From a virus: a stretch of DNA of 63,079 bases. The position numbers were made by a program, and so were the translations under genes. The notes beneath the pieces are model-generated. The model made no database searches, was not told the DNA's origin, and saw only the letters and a program-made list of their open reading frames with translations. Positions 1,071 to 62,881 of the stretch are shown here, in pieces (the first letter of the stretch is position 1; every line of letters starts with the position of its first letter). The stretch covers positions 1 to 63,079 of IMG/VR virus record IMGVR_UViG_3300030688_000024. The stretch is one strand, 5' to 3'.

Positions 1071-1085
1071 GTCACTAAGGCTTAC
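1071..1085 (-). promoter_or_regulatory. Operator-like 15-bp palindrome
   Basis: GTCACTAAGGCTTAC on the plus strand matches the recurrent GTMAS-N5-STKAC family. It lies 20 bp before the ATG at 1050 and just after the stop of the upstream gene at 1089. I see no clear -35/-10 pair around it, so it may act as a road-block between genes rather than at a promoter. Confidence 0.5.
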
Positions 1086-1088
1086 GCC

Positions 1089-1520
1089 TCAGTTCATGAA
1101 ATAGGGATGCACCATGGGGATGAGCAGAGCGAAGGCGACCGCGATGGCAGTGACGACCCCAGCGAAGAACGTCCGTTTACGGCGCCGAGCGATCCAGAGA
1201 TCGAAGCCGTCCGGAACGTCCTGGTTCACGACCACAGATACCTTCGGCTGAGCGAACACGTGCCGAAGGATACGGTGTTCGCCGGAGCGGCGTCCGTCCT
1301 CGAACGCCTGACTAAGAGCGTCGTGCGCCATCGTGATGATGCTCTGCTCAGGATCGAACGGACCATAGAGTTGGAAGACGCCCTCCACCCCTTCGATGGC
1401 GTCAGCAGCCTCACGGAGAGCCAGGACGTCTTCGGCGAGCGTCGCCTGGATTGCCTTGTATTCTTCGAGTGGGATCGCGACGTAGAGCAGCGGGTCGAAG
1501 TTGAGATTCGCGTCTGGCAT
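1089..1520 (-). CDS. C-terminally anchored membrane protein, 143 aa
   Basis: Hypothetical protein with a soluble, acidic N-terminal domain (residues 1-110), then a basic RRRKR cluster and one hydrophobic helix at about residues 116-138. This predicts a tail-anchored inner membrane protein with its bulk in the cytoplasm, by the positive-inside rule. The ATG at 1520 follows an AAAGGAAC ribosome-binding site and a promoter/operator at 1544-1572. No similarity to a known family is apparent. It could be a superinfection-exclusion or host-interaction protein, but nothing in the sequence proves this. Confidence 0.7.
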   Translation of the reverse strand: MPDANLNFDPLLYVAIPLEEYKAIQATLAEDVLALREAADAIEGVEGVFQLYGPFDPEQSIITMAHDALSQAFEDGRRSGEHRILRHVFAQPKVSVVVNQDVPDGFDLWIARRRKRTFFAGVVTAIAVAFALLIPMVHPYFMN

Positions 1521-1543
1521 GCATGTTCCTTTTCGTTGTTTGT

Positions 1544-1572
1544 TTCGTAAGTTATAGTTGCAGGCAAAGCAA
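1544..1572 (-). promoter_or_regulatory. Promoter with operator-like site for the 143-aa membrane protein
   Basis: On the minus strand TTGCTT (1567-1572) and TACGAA (1544-1549) are 17 bp apart. The 15-mer GTAAGTTATAGTTGC (1547-1561, plus strand) lies in the spacer and matches one half of the recurrent palindrome well and the other weakly. Confidence 0.45.
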
Positions 1573-1584
1573 GCAATAACGACG

Positions 1585-2103
1585 CTAGGCGTCGATTATT
1601 TTGAACTCCTGCGGAGGTTGGCGTAGAAGCCGGATTGTAATCGGCATTTCCCGAGGGATCACACCATCAGCGGGACCCTGCCACGGCGGAAGGCGCTCAC
1701 CTGCAAGAGCCAAAGCCCAGGTCGTCGCATGCTCATATAACGGATTGAACTGAAGCAACGCATCGTCACCAGATGTGAGCCCGACCTCAGACACCCACAG
1801 GTTGTTATACGTCGCCCGTGCATATGCACCAGCCAGCGCGCCGAGCCGAGCCACTTCCGATGCATCATCAGCCAGGAACGTGGTCGCCCGCGCCTCGACA
1901 GCCGCCTGCGTGATTTCCCGCAATCGGCGCAGAGAGACGTCAGCCTTGTGAACAAGGACGATCGGAACCAACCCGTGGCGCCCAACGGAATCCTTGTCTC
2001 TGCCTTTCGTAACCAGCCAATGCGTGTAATTTCGCAAAGTCAAATCCCCTCTTGAAGTCAGTTTCGAAGCGAGCATGATAGCATGACTTACGTCAGGAGG
2101 CAA
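1585..2103 (-). CDS. Hypothetical protein, 172 aa
   Basis: Unrecognised protein. The likely start is TTG at 2103, four bases after a GAGGAG ribosome-binding site and overlapping the end of the primase gene by 11 bp; an ATG nine codons in (2076) has no ribosome-binding site. Residues 30-60 carry a basic, hydrophobic-rich stretch, and residues 70-110 are alanine-rich helices. The overlap implies translational coupling with the primase-helicase, hence perhaps a replication accessory, but this is inference from position only. Confidence 0.65.
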   Translation of the reverse strand: MPPDVSHAIMLASKLTSRGDLTLRNYTHWLVTKGRDKDSVGRHGLVPIVLVHKADVSLRRLREITQAAVEARATTFLADDASEVARLGALAGAYARATYNNLWVSEVGLTSGDDALLQFNPLYEHATTWALALAGERLPPWQGPADGVIPREMPITIRLLRQPPQEFKIIDA

Positions 2104-5100
2104 CAGACTCCTCGACCTCTTCCTCGGGCTTCTCTCCGTCGATCACGTCAATGAACGGCAGCTTCTTCGCCTTCTCAGCGTGCTTCCTGATCTTCGACAG
2201 CGCCGGCACCAGGATGCAACGCCGACGCTCATCAACGCCAAAACCTTCGTGCTCGTATTTGTCCGTCCGGTATTCGGTCGGATCAGCCAGCAGCCAATCC
2301 TCGGCAAGACGACTGAACAGAGTGGCGTCACCGATCTTGTGCCGACCAGAACTCGACTGTCCGATGAATTTCGTGTAGGCTTTGAGCAGATCATTCTTGA
2401 CGAGGTAGCTCGGTTTGTCCTCATTGAGAGCGACTGGTCCGGACTCCTCGCCTTTCTCTTTCGGATGGATGAAGAACCCATTGTCGATGATCTGGTAGAA
2501 GAAGCGGTCCCCTGTCGACATAGTTTCCTGCGCCTGCTCAGACAGCCAGGGCGTAACGGGAGGCTTGCGGAGGACATTCCAATCACCACCGATCGGCTTC
2601 CAGTGCATCAGTTCGTAAACCATCGCCTCGATCCCGCCACTAAGCATCTGCTTCTCAACCTCGGCGAAGAACTCGATATCGCCACGGCGATCGTCACCAC
2701 AATGAAGGACAAAGAACCGACGTTCATCCTCCAATCCAGCCGGCACGATCCAACGCTCATTGCTGATCATGGCGAGACGCATGAAGTTGTCGAACCGCAT
2801 GCTATCCACACCCTTCGGCGTCAGCAGCATTTCGTCCGATGTGATCATGTCCTTCAGCACGCCACCGGCTTGGCTGTCTCCAGCCCAGAAGGCTTCTTCA
2901 CAAACCAGGAGGATCAAACCCTGCTGATGCTTATTGAACCCACCAACGATCTCATCACGACGGGACACCTTCAGCGACGCCGCGCCGATCGCCTCCCTGA
3001 TCCAATCGAACAGGACGGACTTACCTGTGCCCTTCCTACCCTTGATCACGACAGCACTGCCAAGCTTCTTCCCTGGATGCTGGAAAATCTGAGCGAGCCA
3101 AGTCATCAACCACTCGAAGTTTTCCTTATTACCGAGACAGATGTTGTCAAGCACGTGCTTCCTAAGAAGACTCCAGTCTCCAACGCGTCCCTTGTAGGAA
3201 ATCCCCTTCCAAATATTGTAGGCATTACCCACGTTTTCTATTCCTGGCTGAAAAACGACACGGTCATACTTGCGCCGTTCTTTCCAACGGCACCACTCCA
3301 GCGCAATCGGAGACTTTTTTGTGTTTCCATCGGCGCCCATGATCACGACCTCTCGATCCTGCAACCATGCGGTGAATGAATCCTTGTCCAGCATTTCCGG
3401 CGCTGTGCCCTGCTTTTCGGGCTCCTTCATGATCCGGAACTTACCACCCATCATGACGGCAGCGTATTTATTGTTCAGCCTAGCCAACTCAGTGGCGACG
3501 TCGTCGTCGAATGAGACGTCTTCCGCTCCGGCTTTTTTCGACCGACCGATCTTCATTTCGTCAGCAAGCGCCTTGGCGCCAACGCCTGTCTTGCGCACCA
3601 GGAGCTTTTTCAGACTGTCTTGCTCGGCTGCTGAGAACCCAGACATACCTACGTTGACAGCCACATGCCCAGCCAAGGGATCGTCGATCTCCATGGCACC
3701 GATGATCTTCTTCGCCTCGGAAAGGCTGGCGTATGGCTTGTTTTCTAGTTTCGGCGTGTCATCGTCATCACCTGATGCAGATTCTTCCTCTTCTTCGTCA
3801 CCCTCGACATCAGGAACCCACTCCTTCAGCTTCATGGCGTCATCGATGCCAGCAGTCTGACATGCCAGATCAATCAGGTTCAGCCGATCAAACCCAGCGC
3901 ACGAATCATGCCGGCAGCTTGCAACCGCCTGTCCGGTCTCACTGTCGGACGCATTGACGCAGAAGAACCCGACGTCGTTCTCATCGCCGGCATTTGTGTG
4001 ATTGTCGTCGTTGGGGCAGCGATGCGACCGGCCCATCCCAGACGACCGTGATCCACGGTCACCATCTCCGTCCCGCTCCAGTAGGAAGGTCTCGACGTCG
4101 AACCGGTCGCCATACTTGCCGAAGAACCTCTTCATGTTGGTCGTCTTGTAGACGCCGGTCTGCATCTCTTCCGCCGCCTGTTCGAACGGTGACAGCCCAG
4201 CCCGGCGAACTTCGTCCTTGGTGACCCGGTCGACCGTGTCCAGGTCCAATGGTTTCCCAGCAACCACATCGATGCGCCAGTCCGAGGCGCCCCGTGCGTG
4301 CCTGGGGTGGTAGAACAAGCGGGAGGGATCGACGCACGTCCGATCGAACCACGTCCCCAACAGCTTACTGGCGCCCGCGTAACGCTCTTTCCATTCGACG
4401 ATCGCCGCCTGTTGCGTGTTCGCCCGATCGGCGATGACGAACCGGTCCTTGAGTAGGAGCACAACGCGGAACTTGGGCATCGGTTGGTGCTCCAGGAACA
4501 CCTTGATGCCGTCCTTCGTGTGTTCAGTCTGCTGGAGTTTCGCACCGTCCAATATCTCAGGGCGGTAGCGCTTGACATCGATCAGGTAGCCAGCGACATC
4601 ACCAGCGGTCGGCGGTGCGTTCCCACCACCCATCCAGGTGACGACTGCATCCTTCTTGACGTCGGACACCGGCTTCATGTTCGAGTGGGTCGTGTAGATG
4701 ATCGCGAAGAGCCCCAAGGCCTGGATACGCTGGCGTAGCGCGTCGATGTCCTCACCCGTGTCCAGATCAAGCACCAGGATGTCCAGATGGGGGATCGAAT
4801 TCGCATGCCGATCGCCGCCGATGGTTGAACCTTGAAGGAAGCACGATCCATCTTTCTCGCCGGGCTCATGCTTTGACAGGCGATCGATCAACCCGCCGAC
4901 CGTGGTCTTCCAATTGCTCCAGCGCCCGCGACCGGTCGCCGCACCCTCTTTGCTGCCGCCCAGGATGATCTCACGCTTGAGCATGTCAGGGTCCAGCGTG
5001 CCGTAGATGATGGCGTCATTGTGCTCGCTGATTTCAGGGTCAGTGAACGCCACCTCGATCTGCTCGATCTCATACGCGACGTCACTTTGGGATTGGATTG

Positions 5101-5476
5101 TCCATCCGCCGGACCCAGGCAGCGGAACCGCCTCAGTCAGTCCCACAGGCCGTGTCCGAAGATCGACGGTGCCAACCAACCAGACCGCATACAAGTCGCC
5201 TGTGGCGTTGCTCAGGACCACCGACGGAGCCAGCGGAAGCGCATCCAAGGAGTCCACAGCGAACCCGACAGCGGACTGCTCCCACGGAGCGCCGGACTCA
5301 TCCCTCGTCTGTAGGCTGACCCAGGATTCACCATCACCGATGAACTCAGCGATCTCCTCGGGGTCCCGCGTCTGGATAATCTTTTCATCCGCACGGCAGA
5401 CAGAAACCAACCCGTCAGTCGCCTCGTTCCCGAATATGGCGAGGCAGAAATCTTCAATTTGGGATAGGACTGGCAT
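2093..5476 (-). CDS. Primase-helicase, large fused protein (1127 aa)
   Basis: Probable replication initiator and priming helicase. The N-terminal part holds LVLDLDTG near residue 235 and FRVVLLL near 340, as in archaeo-eukaryotic-type primase folds. A His/Cys cluster at about 485-525 (HRCPNDDNH, then C, C and C) could bind zinc. An acidic linker follows near 560-580. The C-terminal half has a Walker A motif KGRKGTGKS near 812 and an acidic Walker B-like LLVCEEAFW near 855, as in D5/DUF5906-type phage helicases that form ring hexamers. The ATG at 5476 overlaps the stop of a 9-codon leader ORF. The ribosome-binding site right before the ATG is poor, so coupling to the leader is likely. The fold assignment of the N-terminus is less certain than that of the helicase. 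Confidence 0.85.
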   Translation of the reverse strand: MPVLSQIEDFCLAIFGNEATDGLVSVCRADEKIIQTRDPEEIAEFIGDGESWVSLQTRDESGAPWEQSAVGFAVDSLDALPLAPSVVLSNATGDLYAVWLVGTVDLRTRPVGLTEAVPLPGSGGWTIQSQSDVAYEIEQIEVAFTDPEISEHNDAIIYGTLDPDMLKREIILGGSKEGAATGRGRWSNWKTTVGGLIDRLSKHEPGEKDGSCFLQGSTIGGDRHANSIPHLDILVLDLDTGEDIDALRQRIQALGLFAIIYTTHSNMKPVSDVKKDAVVTWMGGGNAPPTAGDVAGYLIDVKRYRPEILDGAKLQQTEHTKDGIKVFLEHQPMPKFRVVLLLKDRFVIADRANTQQAAIVEWKERYAGASKLLGTWFDRTCVDPSRLFYHPRHARGASDWRIDVVAGKPLDLDTVDRVTKDEVRRAGLSPFEQAAEEMQTGVYKTTNMKRFFGKYGDRFDVETFLLERDGDGDRGSRSSGMGRSHRCPNDDNHTNAGDENDVGFFCVNASDSETGQAVASCRHDSCAGFDRLNLIDLACQTAGIDDAMKLKEWVPDVEGDEEEEESASGDDDDTPKLENKPYASLSEAKKIIGAMEIDDPLAGHVAVNVGMSGFSAAEQDSLKKLLVRKTGVGAKALADEMKIGRSKKAGAEDVSFDDDVATELARLNNKYAAVMMGGKFRIMKEPEKQGTAPEMLDKDSFTAWLQDREVVIMGADGNTKKSPIALEWCRWKERRKYDRVVFQPGIENVGNAYNIWKGISYKGRVGDWSLLRKHVLDNICLGNKENFEWLMTWLAQIFQHPGKKLGSAVVIKGRKGTGKSVLFDWIREAIGAASLKVSRRDEIVGGFNKHQQGLILLVCEEAFWAGDSQAGGVLKDMITSDEMLLTPKGVDSMRFDNFMRLAMISNERWIVPAGLEDERRFFVLHCGDDRRGDIEFFAEVEKQMLSGGIEAMVYELMHWKPIGGDWNVLRKPPVTPWLSEQAQETMSTGDRFFYQIIDNGFFIHPKEKGEESGPVALNEDKPSYLVKNDLLKAYTKFIGQSSSGRHKIGDATLFSRLAEDWLLADPTEYRTDKYEHEGFGVDERRRCILVPALSKIRKHAEKAKKLPFIDVIDGEKPEEEVEESVAS

Positions 5477-5505: not shown

Positions 5506-5536
5506 GCAACCCCCTCGAAAGTGAAACCACGCTCTG

Positions 5537-5592
5537 GTAAGTTTGGCTTACCTCGATAGGCGAACGAAGTCAACGCGTAAGGTTGGCCTTAG
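5537..5592 (-). promoter_or_regulatory. Promoter with two operator-like sites for the primase-helicase
   Basis: GTAAGTTTGGCTTAC (5537-5551) is one of the most symmetrical members of the palindrome family. A second, looser copy lies at 5577-5592. Between them TTGACT (5568-5573, minus strand) could be a -35 box, with the -10 overlapping the proximal palindrome 17 bp on. The 276 bp between the leader ORF and the next gene hold no convincing gene; a 39-codon minus ORF (5589-5708) lacks a ribosome-binding site. Confidence 0.6.
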
Positions 5593-5781
5593 AAAAGGGA
5601 CTTGTGGGACGTGTCAACAAAACTGCGCCGTGGCTCAACCCCTCCAGCCTCCCACACCCGTTTGCGCGCCATGACGAATGGAGCCATCACACAGGTCAGT
5701 TCCATCATGTGATCGAGCGTGGTGAGACGGCTGAATAGGCGGACGTCGAAGAGCCAAGGTAAGGCATAGTGACGCTGGGAG

Positions 5782-7505: not shown

Positions 7506-7536
7506 TGAAAACTCCTGGTTGGTTTCGATGAAGGGA

Positions 7537-7565
7537 GTGTAAGTGATAATGACACTCCCTGTCAA
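7537..7565 (-). promoter_or_regulatory. Promoter with operator in the spacer
   Basis: Minus-strand TTGACA (7560-7565) and TTACAC (7537-7542) are exactly 17 bp apart. GTAAGTGATAATGAC (7539-7553) lies in the spacer with one half-site overlapping the -10 box. A wider palindrome GAGTGT...ACACTC frames it (7536-7558). It drives the 171-aa gene at 6990-7505. Confidence 0.7.
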
Positions 7566-8724: not shown

Positions 8725-8736
8725 TGCTTTCTCCTC

Positions 8737-8751
8737 GTCAGTTTAACTTAC
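8737..8751 (-). promoter_or_regulatory. Operator-like 15-bp palindrome
   Basis: GTCAGTTTAACTTAC, a close match to the family, overlaps the stop codon of the upstream gene (8748) and ends 12 bp before the next start codon at 8724. No clear promoter hexamers flank it. Confidence 0.55.
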
Positions 8752-8951
8752 CCTGCCGGGCACAAAGCGTGCTTCGACAGGGCGATGCTGATCTCGTCGA
8801 GACGATCCCAACGCTTCTCGTTGAGCAGAGAACCAGGCTTTTTCTCCAAGGTCCAAAGGATCGAACGCTGCTCAGCCTGCAACGCGGCGACAATCCCCTC
8901 CTGGCTAACTTCAGGAGGGAGGTGCGGAAGACGGACGCGACGGGATAGCAT
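8748..8951 (-). CDS. Hypothetical protein, 67 aa
   Basis: Unrecognised small, mostly helical soluble protein with alternating charged and hydrophobic residues (for example LQAEQRSILWTLEKK). Its ATG at 8951 lies three bases before the end of the preceding gene, so the two are coupled. The last codon overlaps an operator-like site. Nothing in the sequence points to a function. Confidence 0.6.
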   Translation of the reverse strand: MLSRRVRLPHLPPEVSQEGIVAALQAEQRSILWTLEKKPGSLLNEKRWDRLDEISIALSKHALCPAG

Positions 8952-9161: not shown

Positions 9162-9308
9162 TTATGGCAGGTATAGCCAGTAGCCATCCGACGAACCCCA
9201 GCCGCTCCAGGTCCACGCCCATTGGCGATGGGCAGAGCGACCACGCAGCCGGAGCCAGAAAGGCGTCCGCTTGATCGGCTCGATCGGGAAGTATCCGAAG
9301 GCGCTCAT
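9162..9308 (-). CDS. Trp-rich 48-aa protein coupled to the recombinase
   Basis: The ATG at 9308 overlaps the recombinase stop in TGATG, giving translational coupling. The 48-residue product starts MSAFGYFPIEPIKRTPFWLR and is unusually rich in tryptophan (seven) and arginine. The C-terminal half alternates Trp, Gly and Ser. I do not recognise it. The coupled start and strict reading frame argue for a real gene; the length is below most gene-finder limits. It could also be a small cofactor of the recombinase, but that is inference. Confidence 0.5.
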   Translation of the reverse strand: MSAFGYFPIEPIKRTPFWLRLRGRSAHRQWAWTWSGWGSSDGYWLYLP

Positions 9309-9889
9309 CAGAGCGCAGCCACAAGTCGGATGCTGTTCGGAGATGGCTCGATGTAGTTCTCCGTCGTTTGGATGCTGGCGTGTCCAGCCAACAGACGGAC
9401 GTCGACCAGGGAGCAGCCGTGAAGGTTCGCACTCCTCGCCAGACGTGTGATGAATGTTCGACGACCACTATGCGATGAGCAGCCATCAAGCTTCATCGTC
9501 TCGTATAGCCGGTGGAACCAGACTCGGACGGACACAGACGACAGGCGCTTAAATCTCCCGATCGTGCCGTAGGTGATGCCAGTATCTTTCGGGCGCTGAG
9601 CCCGCAGCATCGTCAGGACGATGTGAAGATGAGGATGCATCGGGATGGTGCGTTCCTTACTGCCCTTCGCGATGTCGCTGGGGACGAGGAAGAAATCACT
9701 CCGCACGACGCCCTCAGAATCGCACACATCAGTCCAATCCAGACCGGCGATCTCTTGGGCGCGTAGTCCTGCTTTGTAGCTGAGTAGGACCATCACCTGA
9801 TCACGAAGACCATGCTGTCCAGCCGCCACCTTGGTTAGCACCTTCGCGAAGGTCGCGTCATCGAGGGTCTTGGCGTGCTTGGTTGCCAT
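9308..9889 (-). CDS. Tyrosine recombinase, catalytic domain only (193 aa)
   Basis: All expected catalytic positions are visible: Arg43 in GLRAQEI, a Lys in AKGSKERT (75-81), His140 and Arg143 in HSGRRTF, His170 in LAGHAS and nucleophile Tyr179 in TENYIE. The usual N-terminal core-binding domain is missing; the protein begins directly at the catalytic domain, well below the 300-400 aa of complete integrases. It is distinct from the full-length integrase at 36,154. It might resolve genome multimers, invert a segment or act as a directionality partner; no inverted target repeat was found nearby. It is driven by a clear promoter at 9924-9952. Confidence 0.85.
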   Translation of the reverse strand: MATKHAKTLDDATFAKVLTKVAAGQHGLRDQVMVLLSYKAGLRAQEIAGLDWTDVCDSEGVVRSDFFLVPSDIAKGSKERTIPMHPHLHIVLTMLRAQRPKDTGITYGTIGRFKRLSSVSVRVWFHRLYETMKLDGCSSHSGRRTFITRLARSANLHGCSLVDVRLLAGHASIQTTENYIEPSPNSIRLVAAL

Positions 9890-9923
9890 CGGTTGCGGGT
9901 CCTACGTCTGTTTCGATGACCCT

Positions 9924-9952
9924 TTGTAAGCGATAATGACTCCGAGAGTCAA
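9924..9952 (-). promoter_or_regulatory. Promoter with operator in the spacer, for the small recombinase
   Basis: Minus-strand TTGACT (9947-9952), 17-bp spacer, TTACAA (9924-9929). GTAAGCGATAATGAC (9926-9940) fills most of the spacer and overlaps the -10 box. The geometry matches the 7537 and 10,516 promoters: six bases separate the -35 box from the operator in all three. Confidence 0.75.
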
Positions 9953-10439: not shown

Positions 10440-10459
10440 GGTCACCTCGCCTTCCTCAC

Positions 10460-10490
10460 GACAGTATCACTTTCGAGCTTGCGCCGTCAA
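10460..10490 (-). promoter_or_regulatory. Minus promoter of the divergent control region
   Basis: Minus-strand TTGACG (10,485-10,490) is followed 17-18 bp later by ATACTG/TACTGT (10,461-10,467). GACAGTATCACTTTC (10,460-10,474) is a diverged copy of the palindrome overlapping the -10 box. It faces the plus promoter at 10,516 across 25 bp. Confidence 0.5.
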
Positions 10491-10515
10491 TAATATGCGT
10501 GGCGCATTTTAGCGG

Positions 10516-10544
10516 TTGACTCCAGGCGTCAGTTTAGCTTACAA
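10516..10544 (+). promoter_or_regulatory. Plus promoter with operator, start of the early right block
   Basis: TTGACT (10,516-10,521), 17-bp spacer, TTACAA (10,539-10,544). GTCAGTTTAGCTTAC (10,528-10,542) lies in the spacer with its 3' half-site forming the start of the -10 box. It would drive the rIIA-like gene at 10,578 and is one of the best examples of the operator-promoter arrangement. Confidence 0.75.
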
Positions 10545-10577
10545 AGGGTGCATCGGAACATTTGTTGAGGAGTTTCC

Positions 10578-12761: not shown

Positions 12762-12790
12762 TTGACGAGCGTAAGTTGTTCTGTCATGGT
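12762..12790 (+). promoter_or_regulatory. Promoter with operator before the rIIB-like gene
   Basis: TTGACG (12,762-12,767), 17-bp spacer, CATGGT (12,785-12,790, a weak -10). GTAAGTTGTTCTGTC (12,771-12,785) lies in the spacer. The promoter allows rIIB-like expression independent of rIIA-like. Confidence 0.55.
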
Positions 12791-16431: not shown

Positions 16432-16451
16432 CACGTCAGTTTCCCTTACCT
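16423..16451 (+). promoter_or_regulatory. Promoter with operator before the HD-domain gene
   Basis: TTAACC (16,423-16,428), 17-bp spacer, TTACCT (16,446-16,451). GTCAGTTTCCCTTAC (16,435-16,449) spans the spacer end and the -10 box. The -35 is weak, but the spacing equals that of the better promoters. Confidence 0.5.
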
Positions 16452-16469
16452 TGTAAAGTTGGAGTGACA

Positions 16470-17033: not shown

Positions 17034-17626
17034 ATTTCATCAGTTCGAATGACGTCGCCATGGGAAACCTTGGCTACGATCGGGTGGAAGCTGACTTCTA
17101 CCCGACGCCGGGCTGGCTGACCGAGGCGGTCGTTCCGTTCCTGCGTCTGCACGGCGTAACGATCGATACCCACGTGTGGGAGCCGGCCTGTGGCGATGGA
17201 GCCATGTCAGGTGTGCTGGCCCGCAGCTTCGACAAGGTGACGTCGACCGATCTCCACAATTATGGCGCGGTCGATGCTCGGGCTGGTGTCGACTTCCTGA
17301 AGCAGGACGTCCACTGGAAAGGTTCAATCGTAACCAACCCGCCGTATGGGGATTTGGCCGAGGCGTTCATCCGGCATGCGCTGAAGGTCACGACGAAGCA
17401 CAGAGGCGTCGTCGCCATGTTGTTGCGGAATGAATATGACTGTGCCAAGGGCCGGTCTGATCTGTTCCGTCTTCATCCGTTCGCTCGCAAGCTGGTGCTG
17501 ACGACTCGTCCTCGTTGGATTGAGGATAGCACGGGAGCGCCGCGTCATAACTATAGTTGGTTCATCTGGGATTGGGCACGAGTAACGTCGGACCCTATTC
17601 TTTCCTATCACCTGAAGGGTAAGTAA
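17030..17626 (+). CDS. DNA adenine-N6 methyltransferase-like protein (198 aa)
   Basis: Motif I EPACGDGAMSG (about 51-61) for S-adenosylmethionine binding and catalytic motif IV NPPY (103-106) identify a class I amino-methyltransferase; NPPY is usual for adenine-N6 or cytosine-N4 enzymes. At 198 aa it lacks an obvious target recognition domain. No restriction enzyme gene is beside it, so protection of phage DNA from host restriction is the likely purpose. GTG start at 17,030 follows GGAGGAG and overlaps the previous stop (GTGA). Confidence 0.8.
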   Translation: MNFISSNDVAMGNLGYDRVEADFYPTPGWLTEAVVPFLRLHGVTIDTHVWEPACGDGAMSGVLARSFDKVTSTDLHNYGAVDARAGVDFLKQDVHWKGSIVTNPPYGDLAEAFIRHALKVTTKHRGVVAMLLRNEYDCAKGRSDLFRLHPFARKLVLTTRPRWIEDSTGAPRHNYSWFIWDWARVTSDPILSYHLKGK

Positions 17627-17628
17627 GA

Positions 17629-19239
17629 ATGACAAAGACCGAGTTCCTGAAGGCCTACTCGAAGCTGTTGAAGAAGCACGGCAGTCAGCGCGCGGTTGCG
17701 AGCGCCACGAAGATCGCCCGCACGACAATCCAGGAATGGCTGAAGGAAGACGTTGGACCAAAGTTCATCGACCGCAAGCCGTCAAAACCCGTAGTCGTTT
17801 CCGTCCCGGAGAGCGGCACACGCCGCTTCATCCTCACCTCGGCACAGGACGGCACGAACGTCCACGAAGGCTTCCTGACGAACCTGGAAGCCTACGCCGC
17901 CTACCTCGGGGCTGCGATCAGCATCGCCGGCTTCACCTACAACAAGCGGCTGTTCCAGGAGAACAGGAAGGACGATCCCCGGTGGACCGGCTACCACACG
18001 CGGGTCGAGCCCTACCTGGAGCACAACCAAGTTCAGATCGGCGACAATCTGTTGTGGTGCGCCGAGATGAACACGCTTCCCACGGCTGTGACGCCGCTGA
18101 CTGGCTTCGAGGTTTACACCGGGAGCAAGTGGGGAATCTTTCCCCACGCCAAGGTTCAGCTTTCGTCCGTCCCGACGATGAAGCACACGCCGGCAAAACA
18201 AATCATGACGACCGGCGCGGTGACGCTGCCGAACTATGTTCAGAAACGGGCTGGCATCAAGGCTCAGTTCCACCACATCATCGGCGCGGTGCTGGTTGAG
18301 ATCGACAGCGATGGACATCATTTCTGCCGGCACCTGCTGGCGGACAAGAATGGATCGTTCTACGATCTGACGCGGTTCGTGGCTGACGGACGCGTCACCG
18401 AAGGACACCGCCTGGAGGCAATCAATTGGGGGGATATCCACCTCGAAAAGTTAGACTCCGTCGTTGCTAAGGCTGCCTGGGGACTCAGTATCGAAAGCGA
18501 CGGTGTCGTTGTTTCGGACGAGGAGGCGCGCGAGGTGAGCATGCTTGCTGAGTTGGACCCGAAGGTTCAACTGTTTCACGATGCGACCGACTTCTCGGTG
18601 CGCAATCATCATAGCATCAAGGACCCTCACTTCCGGTTCAAGATGCACGTCGCCGGCACCGAACGGGTTGAAGATGCCTTCGACGGTTTGTCGGACTTCC
18701 TGTTGCTGACTGAGGGTGAGAGTTGCTTGTCGGTCGTCGTCGAGAGCAACCACGATCTGGCGGTGAAGCGCTGGCTCGCAGAGAGTGACTGGCGGGACGA
18801 TCCCGTCAACGCCATCTTCTTCCTGGAAGCCCAGTTCGAGGTTCTGAAGGCGATCAAGGCCGGAGAAGACTTCTCCGTCCTGGAGTGGGCAGTTACCCGA
18901 AACCGTGAGAGCGATTTCGATCGGATTGCGTTCCTCCGTGAGGACGAGTCCTTCACGATCTGCGACGGGCTGATCGAATGCGGGATGCACGGGCACCTCG
19001 GCGCCAACGGATCACGCGGAAGCCCGAAGCAGTTCACGCGGATGGGGCAGCGCGCCAACACGGGGCACACTCATTCGGCGTCCATAATCGACGGCATCTA
19101 CACAGCCGGTGTCTCGGGAAGCTTGGACATGGGTTATAACAAAGGGCTCTCGTCGTGGTCCCATAGCCACATCCTGACTTATCCATCAGGGAAGCGGACG
19201 ATTGTGACGATGATGGACGGCAAGTGGCACGCGGACTAA
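17629..19239 (+). CDS. T5 A1-like protein with N-terminal helix-turn-helix (536 aa)
   Basis: The C-terminal third has closely spaced metal-ligand motifs: GMHGHLGANGSRGS (about 444-457), GHTHSASIIDGIY (about 478) and WSHSHILTYPSGKRT (about 510). These match the phage family named after T5 A1, a pre-early protein needed for host DNA breakdown and takeover, and suggest a metallophosphoesterase-like site. The N-terminus (SQRAVASATKIARTTIQEW) is a helix-turn-helix also found at the end of the rIIB-like protein. Nuclease or takeover function is inferred, not shown. Confidence 0.6.
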   Translation: MTKTEFLKAYSKLLKKHGSQRAVASATKIARTTIQEWLKEDVGPKFIDRKPSKPVVVSVPESGTRRFILTSAQDGTNVHEGFLTNLEAYAAYLGAAISIAGFTYNKRLFQENRKDDPRWTGYHTRVEPYLEHNQVQIGDNLLWCAEMNTLPTAVTPLTGFEVYTGSKWGIFPHAKVQLSSVPTMKHTPAKQIMTTGAVTLPNYVQKRAGIKAQFHHIIGAVLVEIDSDGHHFCRHLLADKNGSFYDLTRFVADGRVTEGHRLEAINWGDIHLEKLDSVVAKAAWGLSIESDGVVVSDEEAREVSMLAELDPKVQLFHDATDFSVRNHHSIKDPHFRFKMHVAGTERVEDAFDGLSDFLLLTEGESCLSVVVESNHDLAVKRWLAESDWRDDPVNAIFFLEAQFEVLKAIKAGEDFSVLEWAVTRNRESDFDRIAFLREDESFTICDGLIECGMHGHLGANGSRGSPKQFTRMGQRANTGHTHSASIIDGIYTAGVSGSLDMGYNKGLSSWSHSHILTYPSGKRTIVTMMDGKWHAD

Positions 19240-19245: not shown

Positions 19246-19274
19246 TTGCAGCGTAAGCCGTTCTGACGTATGTC
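19246..19274 (+). promoter_or_regulatory. Promoter with operator before the small GIY-YIG gene
   Basis: TTGCAG (19,246-19,251), 17-bp spacer, TATGTC (19,269-19,274). GTAAGCCGTTCTGAC (19,253-19,267) fills the spacer. The -10 box includes the ATG at 19,270, which argues that translation starts later, at 19,300. Confidence 0.65.
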
Positions 19275-19299: not shown

Positions 19300-19620
19300 A
19301 TGCAGCCCGACGCCAACACACGATCCGAACACAGACAGATCGTCAAAGCCTCCGTCCTCATTCAGAAGGTGGGCATCTACTTCCTGATCGCCAACCGGAA
19401 GATCGTTTACGTCGGCAAGTCCTGCAACATCCCGGGGCGCGTCGCAGAGCATATGCTGTCGAAGGAATTCGACAGCTTCTCCTTCATCCCCGCCGGGCGC
19501 CAGGAACTGGACGCCTTGGAGCGAGCCTACATCGACAAGTTCCTGCCGGTCCTCAACCGAGACCCGACAACCGAGAGGCTCCGGCGCCAAACGACTGTCA
19601 AACGACGTAAGGGAAACTGA
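19300..19620 (+). CDS. Small GIY-YIG nuclease-domain protein (106 aa)
   Basis: The GIY-YIG pattern is visible: GIYFLIANRKIVYVGKS with the second motif as YVG, Arg in NIPGRVAEHM, and Glu in LDALERAYIDKFLPVLN. These are the expected catalytic positions of this nuclease fold. It is a single domain without a DNA-binding extension, like the minimal phage members, so it may be a stand-alone nuclease rather than a homing enzyme. ATG 19,300 has GAAGG eight bases upstream and lies downstream of the promoter. Confidence 0.75.
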   Translation: MQPDANTRSEHRQIVKASVLIQKVGIYFLIANRKIVYVGKSCNIPGRVAEHMLSKEFDSFSFIPAGRQELDALERAYIDKFLPVLNRDPTTERLRRQTTVKRRKGN

Positions 19621-19621
19621 C
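19607..19621 (+). promoter_or_regulatory. Operator-like site overlapping stop codon and ribosome-binding site
   Basis: GTAAGGGAAACTGAC ends in the TGA of the GIY-YIG gene, and its AAGGGA is the only plausible ribosome-binding site for ATG 19,624. The identical 15-mer recurs at 28,624. No promoter hexamers precede it here. Confidence 0.5.
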
Positions 19622-19623
19622 AC

Positions 19624-20043
19624 ATGTATCACGTTGAAATCCACGTCATCGACACCGTGAACAATCGAGACCTCGCCTACATGGGGCTCAACGTTACCCA
19701 AGGGTTCACACAGCCTGAGATTATCGAGGCTGCGGCGATCTTCATCGCGTCGGTCGCGGAAGTTCAGGCGGATGTGGATCGGGAGCCGGCGGAGGAAGAC
19801 AAGCCGCTTGTGCCGGCGACCTACACGGCGACGTTGACTCACGTTGGGGAGGATAAGCACATCAATGCCATCAAGGAGCTTCGCACCTTCGCCGGGCTGA
19901 CTTTGAAGGACGCGAAGGACGCCGTTGATGCTGTCAGGGACAAAGGCACGCCGTGGATCGTCAAGGACGGGCTATCGTCCGAGGATGCTCTGGCGCTGAA
20001 ATCCGCGTTTGAGGCGGCAGGCGCCTCGGTGGTGCTCACCTGA
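19624..20043 (+). CDS. Protein with ribosomal L7/L12 C-terminal-like domain (139 aa)
   Basis: The second half (about residues 78-139) follows the bacterial L7/L12 (bL12) C-terminal domain closely: NAIKELRTFAGLTLKDAKDAV, then WIVKDGLSSEDALALKSAF and EAAGASVVL. The N-terminal half is unrelated to the L12 dimerisation domain. In ribosomes this domain recruits translation factors. Viral genomes carrying bL12 homologues have been reported; whether this chimeric protein joins ribosomes is unknown. Alternatively the fold is reused for protein binding. It overlaps the next gene by one base and shares its transcript. Confidence 0.65.
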   Translation: MYHVEIHVIDTVNNRDLAYMGLNVTQGFTQPEIIEAAAIFIASVAEVQADVDREPAEEDKPLVPATYTATLTHVGEDKHINAIKELRTFAGLTLKDAKDAVDAVRDKGTPWIVKDGLSSEDALALKSAFEAAGASVVLT

Positions 20044-26232: not shown

Positions 26233-26234
26233 CG

Positions 26235-39670: not shown

Positions 39671-39700
39671 TTAACATCGTCTTTTTGGCTGACGCGTCAA
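39671..39700 (-). promoter_or_regulatory. Lysis operon promoter with operator
   Basis: Minus-strand TTGACG (39,695-39,700) with ATGTTA/TGTTAA 17-18 bp away (39,671-39,677). GTCTTTTTGGCTGAC (39,679-39,693) is a family member in the spacer. Confidence 0.55.
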
Positions 39701-42700: not shown

Positions 42701-43249
42701 AGTGGTTGTGATAGTTCCGCCGTTCAGCCCTGTGCCAATGACTAGCTGGGTCACAGCCTGCGTCGACGAGATCGGGACAAACCCAAGCGCGGTCGCCACA
42801 TCACTCTCAGTAAGCGTGATGGGTCCAGTGCGTGTATTGAAGGCTGTAACACCGCCTGACCCACCACCGCTCCCTGGAGCAGAGATGGCCTTCGTATTGG
42901 TGCCGTCGCAGTAGAGCAGGATGATGGTGCCGGCGCCGACGAAGACAGCGGCTCCAGTAGTTCCGCCAACCGTTACGGGGTATGTCCCGTTCGCTGTGTT
43001 GTCGATGATGAACAGTCGTGTCACCAACGGGATCGTTAGTGTCCCGGCGCCTGAGAGCGCACCCATCAGGAAGGTGACCGCCTCACCGAACTGAAGCAGC
43101 GTTAGCGTCGCGGCATTCGCTGTGAAAGCTACCGAAAGTTCAGCGTTGCCGGCATTCTCCAGCGCCAAGAAGGCGTCGTTGATCGTCACCTCTTTCTGGT
43201 TCTGATTCGAGGCGACCTGGGGGAGACTGAGGATTGGCGTTACTGGCAT
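39749..43249 (-). CDS. Tail fibre / receptor-binding protein (1166 aa)
   Basis: Begins with a DUF2793-like segment (ILSLPQVASNQNQKEVTIND), common at the attachment end of alphaproteobacterial phage fibres. The rest is low-complexity Gly/Thr/Ser/Ala/Val repeats. The unit LANxGTxSAxP recurs (for example near residues 190-200, 565-575, 680-690 and 770-780), together with longer units containing ILYR and GEVL, which suggests internal duplication of trimeric beta-helix modules. The last 90 residues lose the repeat and may hold the receptor-binding tip. Separate promoter and operator upstream. Confidence 0.8.
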   Translation of the reverse strand: MPVTPILSLPQVASNQNQKEVTINDAFLALENAGNAELSVAFTANAATLTLLQFGEAVTFLMGALSGAGTLTIPLVTRLFIIDNTANGTYPVTVGGTTGAAVFVGAGTIILLYCDGTNTKAISAPGSGGGSGGVTAFNTRTGPITLTESDVATALGFVPISSTQAVTQLVIGTGLNGGTITTTGSISLAPIAPNSIMANTGTGSAAPSGMIIGPSFTITGGNTLAIAGGPGLGTVTDLVAGGGLDGGSITNVGTVSIHGVGTATVGQIMESDGAGSVVWKTSVPAASGELLGGSGTIGMASGITIGANLTLAAGTLALDAILTGETLAGATLTGVLTNSGTIVGGSITGLSTPVGASDAATKGYVDGAIQGLTIKPSAAVATTAALPTNVYNNGSSGVGATLTASAAGTLLVDSYAPPVGVRVIVKNEATGANNGLYIVTQAGSVSTPWVLTRDTSMQSSAEFEGAFVAVEQYGASLANSLWLCTATGTVTIGTTAIGWTQLNSSTGAAAGTGLVVSGSTISLAPIPAGSFLANTGTASAAPGALVIGAGFSISGGTFNATGMQSLAMESGGVGIGSTTTLNAGPGITVGITSGVATISAPGNGTITEVYTGAGLTGGPITTTGTVALAPVAAGDLLANLGTVSSVPTGVSPSALLDSAFGANQGAILYRSATAWAEITLGTVGQVLEAQTGTPAWVTAIPGASTSVLLGASGTVGVAGTVAIGSGLGLATGILSLGTATVGGILANLGTVGAIPTPQSASSILDFAFGTSVGGVLYRGSTGWTALGAGTSGEVLMQGTTLPFWGTPTGITVPGSGIVYSTGTALADLTLGSNLGFSTGTLTLSGVELSTNKGANNGYAGLDSSGRVPLAQLPSSLGEAMVWAGVWNASTNSPTLVSGAGSNGATYTVSVAGTTTLDTISSWDVGDKASFDGTDGVWRKIDGLGSEVLSVAGRTGPVTLTYSDIGGLNGIASQSIPSAGMVYSNGSLLATLTLGSNLSYASGTLSLTGLNGISTQTVPASGLVYSNGTILSAVTLGAGVTFSSGTIDIETSAKIRTIPFPIVGVPAGGQDMIIVVTQGGTLLANGGAPKARVKVNPTATNTLILYTDVAGTITNQGTISISTAGVVTWPTFSAVALSAGDSIEIINQATADATFANSCLSLQYQVT

Positions 43250-43284: not shown

Positions 43285-43313
43285 CAGGTAGGTATGGCTT
43301 ACGGTGGTGTCAA
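43285..43313 (-). promoter_or_regulatory. Tail fibre promoter with operator
   Basis: Minus-strand TTGACA (43,308-43,313), 17-bp spacer, TACCTG (43,285-43,290). GTAGGTATGGCTTAC (43,288-43,302) lies in the spacer. Confidence 0.65.
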
Positions 43314-43334
43314 TGATAATGACGCCGTGGTGCG

Positions 43335-55521: not shown

Positions 55522-57345
55522 TTAGACAGGCACGAGACTCGAAAACCGATCGATCTGGATCATGCACTGGGTTTGGACGTCTCTGAAGGACTCGAAAGTA
55601 ATGTCATTCATCACATCCTGGTCGATTCCTTTTGAGTTGACAGGATCGGCAGTAATCTTCACCGCCGGCAGAGTGAAGTAATACGAGTTCAAAGTGCTGT
55701 CAAAGACTGACCAAGACAACGACACAGTATCGTGGTTCAAGAAGTTGTTGAAAAGGTCCCACGTCTCGAAGTAGCACTGAGCCGAGCCAGTCAACTCGAA
55801 CCGACCGGTGCCGATGCCGACAGGGAACTTGCTGGACACAGCCATCTGGTTGCGTAGGTTGGCTTTCCCATCCAACTTGATCTCCTTGATCGCGGTGGTC
55901 AGCGGCAAGCCGTTCTTCATCAACTGACCGACGTCGGTCGTGGCATTCATGATCTCGGTCTCCACCGGAGCCAGAACCGTGTAGGCGCCGCCGGCTAGGA
56001 CCGTGGAGGTTCCAACGGTGGTAGCGCGTCCCATGAACTCGAACGAACCGGTCAGAACAGCGGAGGCGCTGAACGACAGGCTGAAGCTGTTCACCATCTG
56101 CCCGTCCTGGAGCATGTATTGACCTACGTCTTCGAAGCCGGCTTCGAGAGAAGCAGACTGCGGCACGATGTTGGCAACCGAGGACGGGTTGCGGAGCATC
56201 GATCCCTGGATCGTGACAGCGATGCTGCCTGCGTTCGCGTTGGTCGTCGGTGCCGGCGTAACAGTCAACACGTCGGAGCCCACAGCCACGATCGTGTAGA
56301 TGCCGTGCTGGGTAGCGTCGCCGCCAGCGAAGGCGCCGAGGGTGATGTTGGTTCCAGAAGCGGGCTCGGTCTTCGCGAGCGATCCGCCTGTGACATTTAG
56401 GTTCTTGATGCTGACCACGCCAGCAGCGGCGTAGGCGTTCACATCAAGATAAGTTGGCGTGCTCCCACCGACCGAACCGACGCCGTTGATGCGGGCGGCG
56501 TTGATGGCAGCGGCCAAGTTGGTCGCAGACAGCGTCGCAGTCGTGCCGATGGCGAAATCGACGCCGGCAGTGAAGGTGTAGCTGTTGAGGCTGTCATTCA
56601 CCGTGATGGTGCTGGCAGCGACGCAGGTAGCGGCGAACGTGACGGTGCCGACGTCGTAGCCGAGGCCTTCGACGTGGATTTTCTGACCGATGTTCAACTG
56701 GCCTACAGCCAGGGCTGACGCAAACGCATTCGTGCTGTTGCTATCGAACGCTGACGCGCCGGCAGTCCCGGCGCGGATCGCAGTGTTGGACAGAACGATG
56801 ACATCGTTCGCATCCTTCACGACAGACTTTGCGTTGCCGGCTTCGACGATGGAAGTGGTGGTGGAGAAGGTGATGTTGGTTGCACCGCCTGCGTAAGCAA
56901 CGCTCGCGATTTGGAAGAATCCGTTGTTCACCGGATTGACGAACCCAGCAACCTTCATCCGGCGACCGGGCGTGATGTAGCCGACGACGGTCGGACCAAC
57001 GATCGAGATGATGTTGTCGGCGGTCCAGGACACGCCTGCACCTTTCCAGAAGTCGAACGTCATCGGACGAGTCCAGGTGCCAAGCACGAACGCCTGAAAC
57101 AGGTCATCGTGTCCGCCGGCCTGAAACTCAAAGTTGATGCCACCATCAGACATCATTTCGGTTTCGATGATGTCGGAGACCATGCGGTCGTCTCGGATCG
57201 TGTTCGACTTGGTCGTGTTCTTCTTGAGACTCAGCGAATGGCTGGTCATGTTCAGTTCACGAGTGATGCCAGTCGACTGGGTCTGACCCCATTGGGTCTC
57301 CCACAACAGTCGGAGGTTCGTTTGGTTGGTGGACGAAAACGTCAT
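55522..57345 (-). CDS. Tail tube protein with large inserted domains (607 aa)
   Basis: Residues 1-115 and about 410-607 look like a phage tail tube (Phage_tube_2-like): RMVSDIIETEMMSDGGINFE, DLFQAFVLGTWTRPM and later FPVGIGTGRFELTGSAQCYFETW. Between them lie about 300 residues of Gly/Ala/Thr-rich beta sequence, including SATNLAAAINAA, resembling the insert of the gp13-like protein; these probably decorate the outside of the tail. AGGAGG precedes ATG 57,345, and a clear promoter lies 55 bp upstream. Confidence 0.75.
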   Translation of the reverse strand: MTFSSTNQTNLRLLWETQWGQTQSTGITRELNMTSHSLSLKKNTTKSNTIRDDRMVSDIIETEMMSDGGINFEFQAGGHDDLFQAFVLGTWTRPMTFDFWKGAGVSWTADNIISIVGPTVVGYITPGRRMKVAGFVNPVNNGFFQIASVAYAGGATNITFSTTTSIVEAGNAKSVVKDANDVIVLSNTAIRAGTAGASAFDSNSTNAFASALAVGQLNIGQKIHVEGLGYDVGTVTFAATCVAASTITVNDSLNSYTFTAGVDFAIGTTATLSATNLAAAINAARINGVGSVGGSTPTYLDVNAYAAAGVVSIKNLNVTGGSLAKTEPASGTNITLGAFAGGDATQHGIYTIVAVGSDVLTVTPAPTTNANAGSIAVTIQGSMLRNPSSVANIVPQSASLEAGFEDVGQYMLQDGQMVNSFSLSFSASAVLTGSFEFMGRATTVGTSTVLAGGAYTVLAPVETEIMNATTDVGQLMKNGLPLTTAIKEIKLDGKANLRNQMAVSSKFPVGIGTGRFELTGSAQCYFETWDLFNNFLNHDTVSLSWSVFDSTLNSYYFTLPAVKITADPVNSKGIDQDVMNDITFESFRDVQTQCMIQIDRFSSLVPV

Positions 57346-57400: not shown

Positions 57401-57429
57401 TGACTATCGCGCGTAAGTTAAGCTGTCAA
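57401..57429 (-). promoter_or_regulatory. Tail tube promoter with operator
   Basis: Consensus TTGACA (57,424-57,429), 17-bp spacer, TAGTCA (57,401-57,406) on the minus strand. GTAAGTTAAGCTGTC (57,413-57,427) overlaps the -35 box. A separate promoter is expected for such an abundant virion protein. Confidence 0.7.
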
Positions 57430-57451
57430 GAAAAAGAGCGCCGTGGCTCAG

Positions 57452-59727: not shown

Positions 59728-59748
59728 TAAGAGCGTCAAGGTTCACAT

Positions 59749-59763
59749 GTAAGCCTGACTGAC
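59749..59763 (-). promoter_or_regulatory. Operator-like site upstream of the 79-aa gene
   Basis: GTAAGCCTGACTGAC fits the family. TTACAT on the minus strand could be a -10 box, but no good -35 is found 17 bp away. A looser copy, GTAAAGTCATAATGAC, lies at 59,802-59,817. Confidence 0.45.
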
Positions 59764-60047
59764 GCGAACAGGCGACAAATCGGAGGGTAACAGTGCGTCC
59801 CGTAAAGTCATAATGACGTGCCTCCTGTTACAATCAAATACAAGCAGCCACATTAAGAGGTCGTAAGGCCTTGCGGAGCGTAGAACCGTTGTCCTACTTT
59901 GCCTCCTCATCCAGTGAAAGGAAGACCCGACCGAAATGAAATGTGAAATATTTCAATAATAATTGGTTTCAAACTGATGTCGAACCGTTATATGGCTAAT
60001 ATGTGACAATAAGTTCTTCACCTAATCTTTGGTGTGTCCTGATTATC

Positions 60048-61337: not shown

Positions 61338-61784
61338 TTACATGCCCGGCAGAGGTGCGCAGTAGGCGGTGTAGGTGATCGTCGGAGACGTTCCACCGAG
61401 GGTGAGATACAGGCGGAGCGAGCCGACCAAGGCACCCGCCAGGGCGTTGATCACGTCGTCACGTTCGACGATCAGGACGGTGCGACCAGCACCGGTAATC
61501 GCTTCGGTAACGATGGCGACCGGCGCGGCGAACGCCCCGGAGTCCGGAGCCACCTGAACAGCAGCGGAGAACGTCGGCGTGGTGCCACCAACCGCCGTGG
61601 TCTCGATCACGATGGCAAATTCCAGAGGATCAGCGACGTCGCCGGCATTCCAGTATGCACCCAGAACATCGAGAGGGATGGAGTTGGTCGAGGCGCCACT
61701 CGACGTTACAGCGACGGAACCAGTCGGCTGCAACGCAGTCAGTGCGTCATAAGAAAAGCGGTTCGAAGAAGTCTTGACGGACAT
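61338..61784 (-). CDS. Capsid cement/decoration-like protein (148 aa)
   Basis: Resembles the Bbp16-type cement proteins encoded right after major capsid genes: NRFSYDALTALQPTGSVAVTS near the start, YWNAGDVADPLEFAIVI, and strand-rich LRLYLTLGGTSPTITYTAY at the end. ATG 61,784 has AAAGGAGG upstream. These proteins stabilise the expanded capsid from outside. Confidence 0.65.
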   Translation of the reverse strand: MSVKTSSNRFSYDALTALQPTGSVAVTSSGASTNSIPLDVLGAYWNAGDVADPLEFAIVIETTAVGGTTPTFSAAVQVAPDSGAFAAPVAIVTEAITGAGRTVLIVERDDVINALAGALVGSLRLYLTLGGTSPTITYTAYCAPLPGM

Positions 61785-61821
61785 GGTGTGTCCTCCTTTG
61801 AAGGATGCAGGATCAGGAGAA

Positions 61822-61846
61822 CCCCTCCAGGACGTGCCTGGAGGGG
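61822..61846 (-). terminator. Intergenic hairpin between capsid and cement genes
   Basis: CCCCTCCAGG pairs perfectly with CCTGGAGGGG around ACGTG. No T-run follows. It may act as an attenuator or mRNA-stabilising end that keeps capsid protein in excess over the downstream products. Confidence 0.45.
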
Positions 61847-61855
61847 ATGTCCGTC

Positions 61856-62791
61856 TTACGTGGCGGTGATCGAGGCGTTGGTTACGCCCCAGATGCGAGA
61901 GGCACAGCGCCCGTGCATCGCGGCGAAACCGACCAGCCATTCTACCCGGGTGCGCAGGACCGGCTTGGTCTGCAACTCGCCCAGATCAGTCACTTCCATC
62001 GTGCCGTTCTGGAGTCCGTTCAGCATGCCGGTGCCGATCGACACGACGTAGATGGACTGGCAGGTAGTGCCGCCAGACGGGCCGACCTCGGTGAAGTCAA
62101 GGATTTTCGCACCCGTGTCGTCATAGTCAACGATCAGGATAGGCAGATCGTTGTAGAGGGTGACGCGCTTGCCGAATTCGTCCAGCGCGTAGTCGATGAA
62201 GCCACCAACCTGATAGTTTCGCGCAGCGGTCGTCAGCTTCAGGCGCATCGGTTTCGACATCAGAATGTGCGTGGGGTTGTCCACCCGGTCGATCGCAGTA
62301 TCCAGGGCTTCCAGGCTCATCGCGCTGTTGGTCGTCGGGGCGCCCACAGTCGGACCCACCAACTGGTAGCCGGCAATGCGCTTGCGCAGGCCGTCGAACT
62401 GACGGGGGTCGGCATCGCTGTCGCCGTTGATGAACTTCGCCGACAGGTAGAGGCTCATCGCCTTCACCTTCAACGCTTCCTGCACCGAGCGCTGGTCTTC
62501 GCCGCGCGTCTTGATGGTCGCCTTATCGATGTCCAGATCGCCACCGGCAATCTTCAGGACTTCGACCTGGGGATTGAGAATGCCGACGCTCTCCGAATAC
62601 GCTTCGTTGAAGCCTCGGAACGCAACGCCAGGGAGCTTGCCTTCCTGATTGTAGCTCAGCGACCCGCCGGGGATGTCCTCGAACGGCAGCACGCGCAGGA
62701 TGTCGGAATTCGCGGCAAACATTTCGATGATGGCAGTGCGATGCACATCGCCGTCATGGAGCTTGGATGCTTCGAGCAGGGTCAAGGCCAT
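61856..62791 (-). CDS. Major capsid protein (311 aa)
   Basis: Matches the GP7/phage major capsid family of HK97 fold: MALTLLEASKLHDGDVHRTA at the start, ILRVLPFEDIPGGSLSYNQE, LSAKFINGDSDADPRQFDGL, THILMSKPMRLKLTTAARN and the C-terminal RVEWLVGFAAMHGRCASRIW are characteristic. No N-terminal protease or scaffold segment is fused, so the upstream gene probably supplies scaffolding. AAAGGAG precedes ATG 62,791. Confidence 0.9.
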   Translation of the reverse strand: MALTLLEASKLHDGDVHRTAIIEMFAANSDILRVLPFEDIPGGSLSYNQEGKLPGVAFRGFNEAYSESVGILNPQVEVLKIAGGDLDIDKATIKTRGEDQRSVQEALKVKAMSLYLSAKFINGDSDADPRQFDGLRKRIAGYQLVGPTVGAPTTNSAMSLEALDTAIDRVDNPTHILMSKPMRLKLTTAARNYQVGGFIDYALDEFGKRVTLYNDLPILIVDYDDTGAKILDFTEVGPSGGTTCQSIYVVSIGTGMLNGLQNGTMEVTDLGELQTKPVLRTRVEWLVGFAAMHGRCASRIWGVTNASITAT

Positions 62792-62839
62792 GGGGTGGTC
62801 TCCTTTAAGTCATAGCGGGGTTCGTTCTGATAGAAAGAC

Positions 62840-62881
62840 GTCATATCCCCTTACTAACGTCAGTCCAGCTTACTCTCTCAA
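62840..62881 (-). promoter_or_regulatory. Capsid promoter with tandem operators
   Basis: GTCATATCCCCTTAC (62,840-62,854) and GTCAGTCCAGCTTAC (62,859-62,873) are two family members in tandem. Minus-strand TTGAGA (62,876-62,881), 17-bp spacer and GTTAGT (62,853-62,858) give a promoter, with the second operator in the spacer. Confidence 0.65.

Follow-up and report, generated by a model that had tools for sequence, protein, structure and literature searches.

Intergenic palindromes as putative operators of a CI-like repressor in a DSS3P8-related siphophage fragment and its relatives

The IMG/VR record IMGVR_UViG_3300030688_000024, 63,079 nt in length and referred to here as the window, contained a recurrent 15-bp palindrome, GTMAG-N5-CTKAC, in front of genes over its whole extent, and these palindromes very probably serve as operators for a CI-like repressor that the phage itself encodes at nt 34826–35467 (plus strand). 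The palindromes were enriched, preferentially intergenic and conserved in position, and their type was associated with the type of repressor encoded. Networks of such sites are a trait of the whole lineage comprising DSS3P8-, Mwe-JY26- and phiCbK-like phages, not of the window phage alone. By gene content the window, which is probably an incomplete fragment of a phage genome, was that of a siphophage with temperate-type genes, encoding rIIA/rIIB, primase, DNA polymerase, an A1-like DNA-transfer protein, ribonucleotide reductase, dUTPase and tail proteins as well as a tyrosine integrase and the CI-like repressor (gene starts are those called in this analysis). Its nearest annotated relatives were Microcystis phage Mwe-JY26 and the Roseobacter-group phages DSS3P8, MD18, RpAliso and RcXuper, with phiCbK-like phages being more distant.

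An initial annotation of the window had listed 21 positions of a palindrome written as GTMAS-N5-STKAC. The sequences given were present at all 21 positions; the pattern itself was exact at 12 of them, the remainder having one or a few mismatches. In the form GTMAG-N5-CTKAC, 11 exact copies were found versus 0.2 in Markov shuffles (shuffle maximum 2), and 26 versus 6.4 when up to one mismatch was allowed, while each of the spacers from 0 to 24 other than 5 gave 0–1 copies, so that the enrichment was essentially confined to a spacer of 5. A palindromic weight matrix, proposed in the annotation as a check together with a scan of shuffled genomes, detected 32 sites in the window, with about 2 expected by chance and 0–8 obtained from shuffled genomes, and repeat runs of the procedure returned 28–30 sites. 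Site finding was by a thresholded matrix procedure with shuffled controls, an unconstrained soft expectation-maximisation search having been dropped after collapsing onto a codon-periodic signal. Since some random 5-mer seeds also reached 20–30 sites on real genomes, counting sites does not settle the matter by itself, and the weight lies on placement and conservation. The sites were pseudo-symmetric, commonly with one GTAAG and one GTCAG half around a central A or T, and unlike halves of this kind were present in 26 of the 32 sites (17.7 expected, p=0.004). Three of the listed positions, 30942, 43288 and 62840, scored under the matrix threshold, and that at 35765 (GTCACAATTTGTGAC) was present but belonged to a different sub-type; six matrix sites, 2074, 5756, 10457, 17616, 36037 and 43306, had been missing from the list.

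Intergenic space, 12.4% of the sequence, held 23 of the 32 matrix sites (72%, p=1e-14). The observation named beforehand as speaking against an operator role, sites as frequent inside genes as in promoter regions, was thus not made, and the assignment of every listed site to intergenic space or a gene junction was borne out, 19 of the 21 being intergenic and the other two (7539 and 19607) lying at gene junctions; site 7539 becomes intergenic if its gene starts at 7505. In the relatives, 56–88% of sites were intergenic; the median distance ahead of a gene start was about 50–65 bp. The proposal that most sites lie inside a TTGAC-17 promoter was overstated, as an exact TTGAC at -16 to -19 was found for 6 of the 21 listed sites (0.2 expected). 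When the sites of window-type phages were oriented to the downstream gene, TTGAC occurred at exactly -19 from the centre in 11 of 62 (0.05 expected), which places the downstream half-site on the -10. In CcrSwift and Cp1R7A-A1, TTGAC was formed by the outer arm of the palindrome (offset +3/+4), which suggests that in these phages the operator covers the -35. Such a fixed position relative to TTGAC, covering the -10, could also be expected of a promoter element for a modified RNA polymerase with no operator function, but this explanation is extremely improbable, as a promoter has no need of two-fold symmetry, an A/T centre or a fixed arm spacing, the palindrome shifts against the -35 between the two arrangements just described, and no alternative sigma factor was identified.

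The annotation had also compared the sites to the stoperators of mycobacteriophages. The likeness holds for the many promoter and intergenic sites spread over one genome, but not for symmetry or direction: L5-type stoperators lack symmetry and follow the direction of transcription (PMC9283540), whereas the window sites were palindromic, and half-site direction relative to transcription was without bias in the window (10:5, p=0.3) as in Mwe-JY26 (5:4). Being symmetric and uncorrelated with direction, they resemble classical operators that overlie promoters. Several sites did lie at gene junctions in the long rightward operon without a clear promoter, for example 19604 and 17616, and sites of this kind could act on elongation; nevertheless, stoperators in the mycobacteriophage sense, at which the bound repressor would also halt elongation in intergenic space, are considered unlikely here.

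When all 4- and 5-mer inverted repeats were scanned, the top dyad in DSS3P8, MD18, RpAliso and RcXuper was TGTCA-N7-TGACA, with 31, 17, 31 and 21 copies observed versus 0.4, 0.2, 0.15 and 0.14 expected, respectively; its geometry matches that of the window motif (GTCA-N7-TGAC). Matrix sites numbered 26 in Mwe-JY26, 64–88 in the DSS3P8 group, 29 in Citromicrobium phage RXM and 43 in Lacusarx; in every case the sites were strongly intergenic and centred on A or T. Cp1R7A-A1 possessed 65–74 sites resembling TGTCAAGAAATTCTTGACA (82% intergenic), and CcrSwift, a virulent phiCbK-like phage, about 49 resembling TGTCGTGAATCTTGACA (67% intergenic). Among 38 pairs of orthologous genes in the window and Mwe-JY26, an upstream site was present in both members of 10, in one only of 4 and in neither of 24 (p=6e-6), the shared sites including those at the genes for primase, rIIA, rIIB, dNMP (deoxynucleoside monophosphate) phosphatase, A1, nucleotidyltransferase, dNMP kinase, two tail proteins and the major head protein. 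Sites were likewise kept at orthologous genes between DSS3P8 and MD18 (p=7e-10). Hence the operator sequence diverges while positions before orthologous genes persist.

Host-regulator sites in phage promoters are a known phenomenon, as with CtrA in alphaproteobacterial phages (PMC9437464), and the palindromes might be such sites exploited by the phage. This is highly improbable, because the consensus GTMAG-N5-CTKAC or TGTCA-N7-TGACA differs from the CtrA motif TTAA-N7-TTAA, the motif varies among phage groups, and in four alphaproteobacterial genomes of 3–7 Mb GTMAG-N5-CTKAC was found at chance level (2–5 copies versus 3–7 of a control pattern). Moreover, in each of two genomes with only two copies of the motif (G006 and G007), one copy adjoined a repressor gene.

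The protein predicted for nt 34826–35467 was 213 aa in length, with an N-terminal Cro/CI helix-turn-helix (HTH) domain (PF01381, 45 bits, cut-off 23), whose best solved relative was P22 C2, and an S24/186-CI-like C-terminal domain, for which the Pfam S24 match was weak and below cut-off. The predicted structure (predicted local distance difference test, pLDDT, 85 with 13 related rows; 42 from the single sequence) matched 186 CI, LexA and lambda CI along its length, with 186 CI as the best full-length match, and its HTH domain matched DNA-bound P22 C2 with a template modelling (TM) score of 0.9 on that domain. Structures 7dlv and 7pwj were also among the fold matches. An ortholog was encoded by every network-bearing phage examined. 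Wherever the annotation was viewed, its gene closed the ribonucleotide reductase/dUTPase block, with spanin genes as neighbours in Cp1R7A-A1; this position was shared by RXM, Lacusarx and CcrSwift (gp316 in the last), for which no neighbouring integrase was noted. TgrL of phiCbK (PMC10688885), considered as a candidate binder, and this ortholog appear to be different proteins, since TgrL is gp216 and the ortholog adjoins lysis and nrd-dut genes.

The recognition helix, SRAAVAQWE in the window, was identical, except for one A/G exchange, between the proteins of the window, Mwe-JY26 and the DSS3P8-like phages (SRAAV[AG]QWE), and it provided the link between repressor and palindrome. As independent evidence, GTAAG-N5-CTTAC adjoined the repressor gene in unrelated small prophages and viral contigs with the helix RAAV[AG]QWE (p about 1e-11). 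The top 4-mer dyad in the repressor flanks of 22 non-redundant same-helix loci was TAAG-N5-CTTA, with 8 copies in 7 loci versus 0.14 expected, and the density of exact sites was about 33-fold higher close to the gene than at a distance (10 in 35 kb versus 3 in 349 kb, p=9e-9, duplicate genomes having been removed beforehand). One such locus (L142) bears GTCAGTTTAGCTTAC, identical to the window site at 10528, and loci with other recognition helices had no exact sites beside the repressor. A class-wide genome search gave four right-helix matches, two of which were genomes already in the first set, and taken alone was not significant (p=0.18). On these sequence comparisons, the suggestion of the initial annotation that the protein of nt 34826–35467 binds the distributed sites is the best reading.

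Several observations weigh against this assignment. An exact site lay beside the gene in only 8 of 27 helix-bearing loci; no above-threshold site was present at the promoter of the repressor gene itself in the window (best 8.5 bits); the match of operator to repressor is drawn from sequence comparison and predicted structure; and XM05 and EliS-L02 encode a repressor homolog but lack a GTCA-type network, having a different repeated palindrome, GTTAASSTTAAC, so the trait does not extend to every member of the wider group. These two phages had been considered as repressor-free negative controls, a use that was abandoned once a profile search detected a homolog in each. The GTTAASSTTAAC palindrome, which is neither the GTCA-type operator nor the CtrA consensus, occurred in about 20–54 copies clustered in one genome region (72–126 kb in XM05, 131–140 kb in EliS-L02, 1–10 kb in RXM and 119–130 kb in Lacusarx), and 92–93% of its sites in XM05 and EliS-L02 were intergenic.

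A further point against is that these phages encode a second conserved HTH-like protein, of 117 aa in the window (nt 30572–30925, plus strand), to which the palindromes might belong as targets of an activator or temporal switch. The protein has a weak HTH resemblance, is kept beside thyX in the same phages and is annotated as a transcriptional regulator in some of them. However, no homolog of it was detectable in RXM and Lacusarx, which possess both the network and the CI ortholog, and the small prophages have the palindrome next to a CI gene whose product shares the recognition helix; a role for this or another phage regulator in place of the repressor is therefore judged quite improbable. 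In all close relatives the 117-aa gene adjoined thyX, and in the window a double palindrome (30922 and 30942) followed it directly.

With the CI-like repressor as the proposed binder of all sites, the putative operators of the window were distributed as follows. Two sites, 1048 and 1068 (nt 1048–1088, from the matrix), were upstream of the gene at nt 754–1050 (minus strand), that at nt 5534–5554 was upstream of the primase/helicase gene (nt 2093–5476, minus strand) and is kept in Mwe-JY26, and that at nt 5756–5776 was intergenic. The operator at nt 7536–7556 covered the -10 of a near-consensus minus-strand promoter, TTGACA-18-TACACT, and the highest-scoring one in the window (nt 8734–8754, 21.8 bits) was upstream of leftward genes. 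Sites 9903 and 9923 (nt 9903–9943) lay upstream of nt 9308–9889 (minus strand), and sites 10457 and 10525 (nt 10457–10545), the latter preceded by TTGACT at -35 distance, in the divergent promoter region between rIIA (from nt 10578, plus strand) and the leftward early genes. Single operators followed between rIIA and rIIB (nt 12768–12788), upstream of the dNMP-phosphatase gene (nt 16432–16452), at the start of the A1-like DNA-transfer gene (nt 17616–17636, kept in Mwe-JY26), at two junctions (nt 19250–19270 and 19604–19624), upstream of the nucleotidyltransferase gene (nt 26234–26254), abutting the ATG of the dNMP-kinase gene at 28639 (nt 28621–28641) and upstream of the HNH/ribonucleotide-reductase genes (nt 30919–30939). 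Those at the nucleotidyltransferase and dNMP-kinase genes are kept in both Mwe-JY26 and DSS3P8, as is the operator at nt 43306–43326, upstream of the tail gene at nt 39749–43249 (minus strand). Between repressor and integrase, GATGTCACAATTTGTGACGCA (nt 35762–35782) was a DSS3P8-type variant with a counterpart at 56566 in the matching region of DSS3P8, and a second operator (nt 36037–36057, score 18.1) was upstream of the integrase. The remaining operators were upstream of minus-strand lysis genes (nt 39676–39696), the tail protein gene at nt 55522–57345 (minus strand; nt 57410–57430, kept in Mwe-JY26), leftward structural genes (nt 59746–59766) and the major head protein gene at nt 61856–62791 (minus strand; nt 62856–62876, kept in Mwe-JY26). 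Matrix sites at 22223, 23621, 48340 and 49495 lay within genes.

The tyrosine integrase (nt 36154–37368, plus strand) marks a temperate lifestyle, and lysogenic potential has been inferred for DSS3P8, in which an integrase and a repressor were named (PMC4961962). A small excisionase-like HTH_17 protein, with a match below the curated cut-off, was predicted from nt 35527–35736 (minus strand), adjoining the operator at 35762; its gene and this near-perfect DSS3P8-type operator share the repressor-integrase interval (nt 35527–35782). Besides the integrase, a second tyrosine-recombinase-like product was predicted for nt 9308–9889 (minus strand; PF00589, 68 bits), with a reciprocal best match in DSS3P8 and an operator upstream in both phages.

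Binding and repression are proposed to proceed as follows. A repressor dimer would bind the 15-bp site overlapping the spacer and -10 (in relatives the -35) of host-type promoters and block RNA polymerase, so that initiation stops. With operators fronting most transcription units, the early, replication, lysis and structural genes and the integrase would each be repressed directly in the lysogen, promoter by promoter, in place of one control region plus antitermination. The Ser and Lys of S24, found in most of the small-prophage relatives, were no longer present in the proteins of the window, Mwe-JY26 and DSS3P8, the position of the canonical G-D-S-M motif being occupied by GDTLAP, GSNMAP and SHAVEP, respectively. 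As the window repressor thus lacked the Ser-Lys dyad for RecA-stimulated self-cleavage, such cleavage is probably not the induction route, and another signal or an antirepressor may serve instead. The CI of phage 186 needs an antirepressor and is not cleaved by RecA, and by analogy it is a plausible model for induction. The dUTPase-repressor gene order is conserved in the lineage (nt 34200–35467 in the window). Stl-type repressors are switched by dUTPases, and an interaction of the two proteins in this lineage is an idea worth testing.

In P22 C2, 186 CI and lambda CI, which share the fold of the window repressor and have palindromic operators, the few operators are clustered at the immunity region; in the window they were not so confined, with 32 sites over 62 kb, and the lineage has 26–88 genome-wide. 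The operator half-site of P22 C2 ends in TTAAG, and that of the window is GTAAG. In the actinobacterial phage phiC31, the c repressor binds scattered conserved inverted repeats. Repressor-type sites spread through the promoters and gaps of one genome are shared with cluster A mycobacteriophages, such as L5 and TipsytheTRex with about 26 sites, but those are asymmetric, transcription-oriented 13-mers recognised by a repressor monomer that has two DNA-binding domains (PMC9283540). The sites described here are symmetric 15-mers that show no orientation bias, and the repressor is of the CI/P22-C2 type. Phage P1 similarly has 22 C1 operators dispersed genome-wide, although these are asymmetric, 17 bp in length and unrelated in sequence, ATTGCTCTAATAAATTT (PMC8546580). 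The SPbeta repeat SPBRE, first predicted in silico, is present in about ten promoter regions and bound by the master repressor MrpR, which has a tyrosine-recombinase fold that the window repressor lacks, and fewer sites (PMC10516654). The DSS3P8 paper describes no operators, and the terms palindrome, promoter and repeat are absent from it (PMC4961962); the phiCbK genome paper had no match for repressor or palindrome (PMC3556154); and the palindrome is not reported in the passages found of a motif-searching meta-analysis of alphaproteobacterial phages (PMC10783043). Distributed repressor sites are already known from P1, L5-like phages and SPbeta, and the symmetric CI-type version in this lineage appears new within the literature covered.

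In CcrSwift (NC_019411.1), GANTC, the CcrM methylation site, was exactly at the centre of 23 of the 49 operator-like sites, as at 77650, 32485 and 18701 (loci L088–L098), although this genome avoids GANTC (322 found versus 688 expected from base composition), and binding could accordingly depend on host cell-cycle methylation. It is possible, if doubtful, that the network is conserved across the DSS3P8/phiCbK superlineage, virulent members included, as a switch timing the whole genome in the lytic cycle, with binding perhaps tied to that methylation. Why virulent giant phages retain a genome-wide repressor network is a question that these findings raise. Very many promoters appear to be governed by a classical CI/P22-type repressor through symmetric operators in a widespread lineage of alphaproteobacterial phages, whose cultivated members include DSS3P8, MD18, RcXuper and phiCbK-like phages and for which the sites supply a ready regulon map. 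If this is true, prophages of the lineage would be silenced promoter by promoter and induced by a route other than RecA cleavage.

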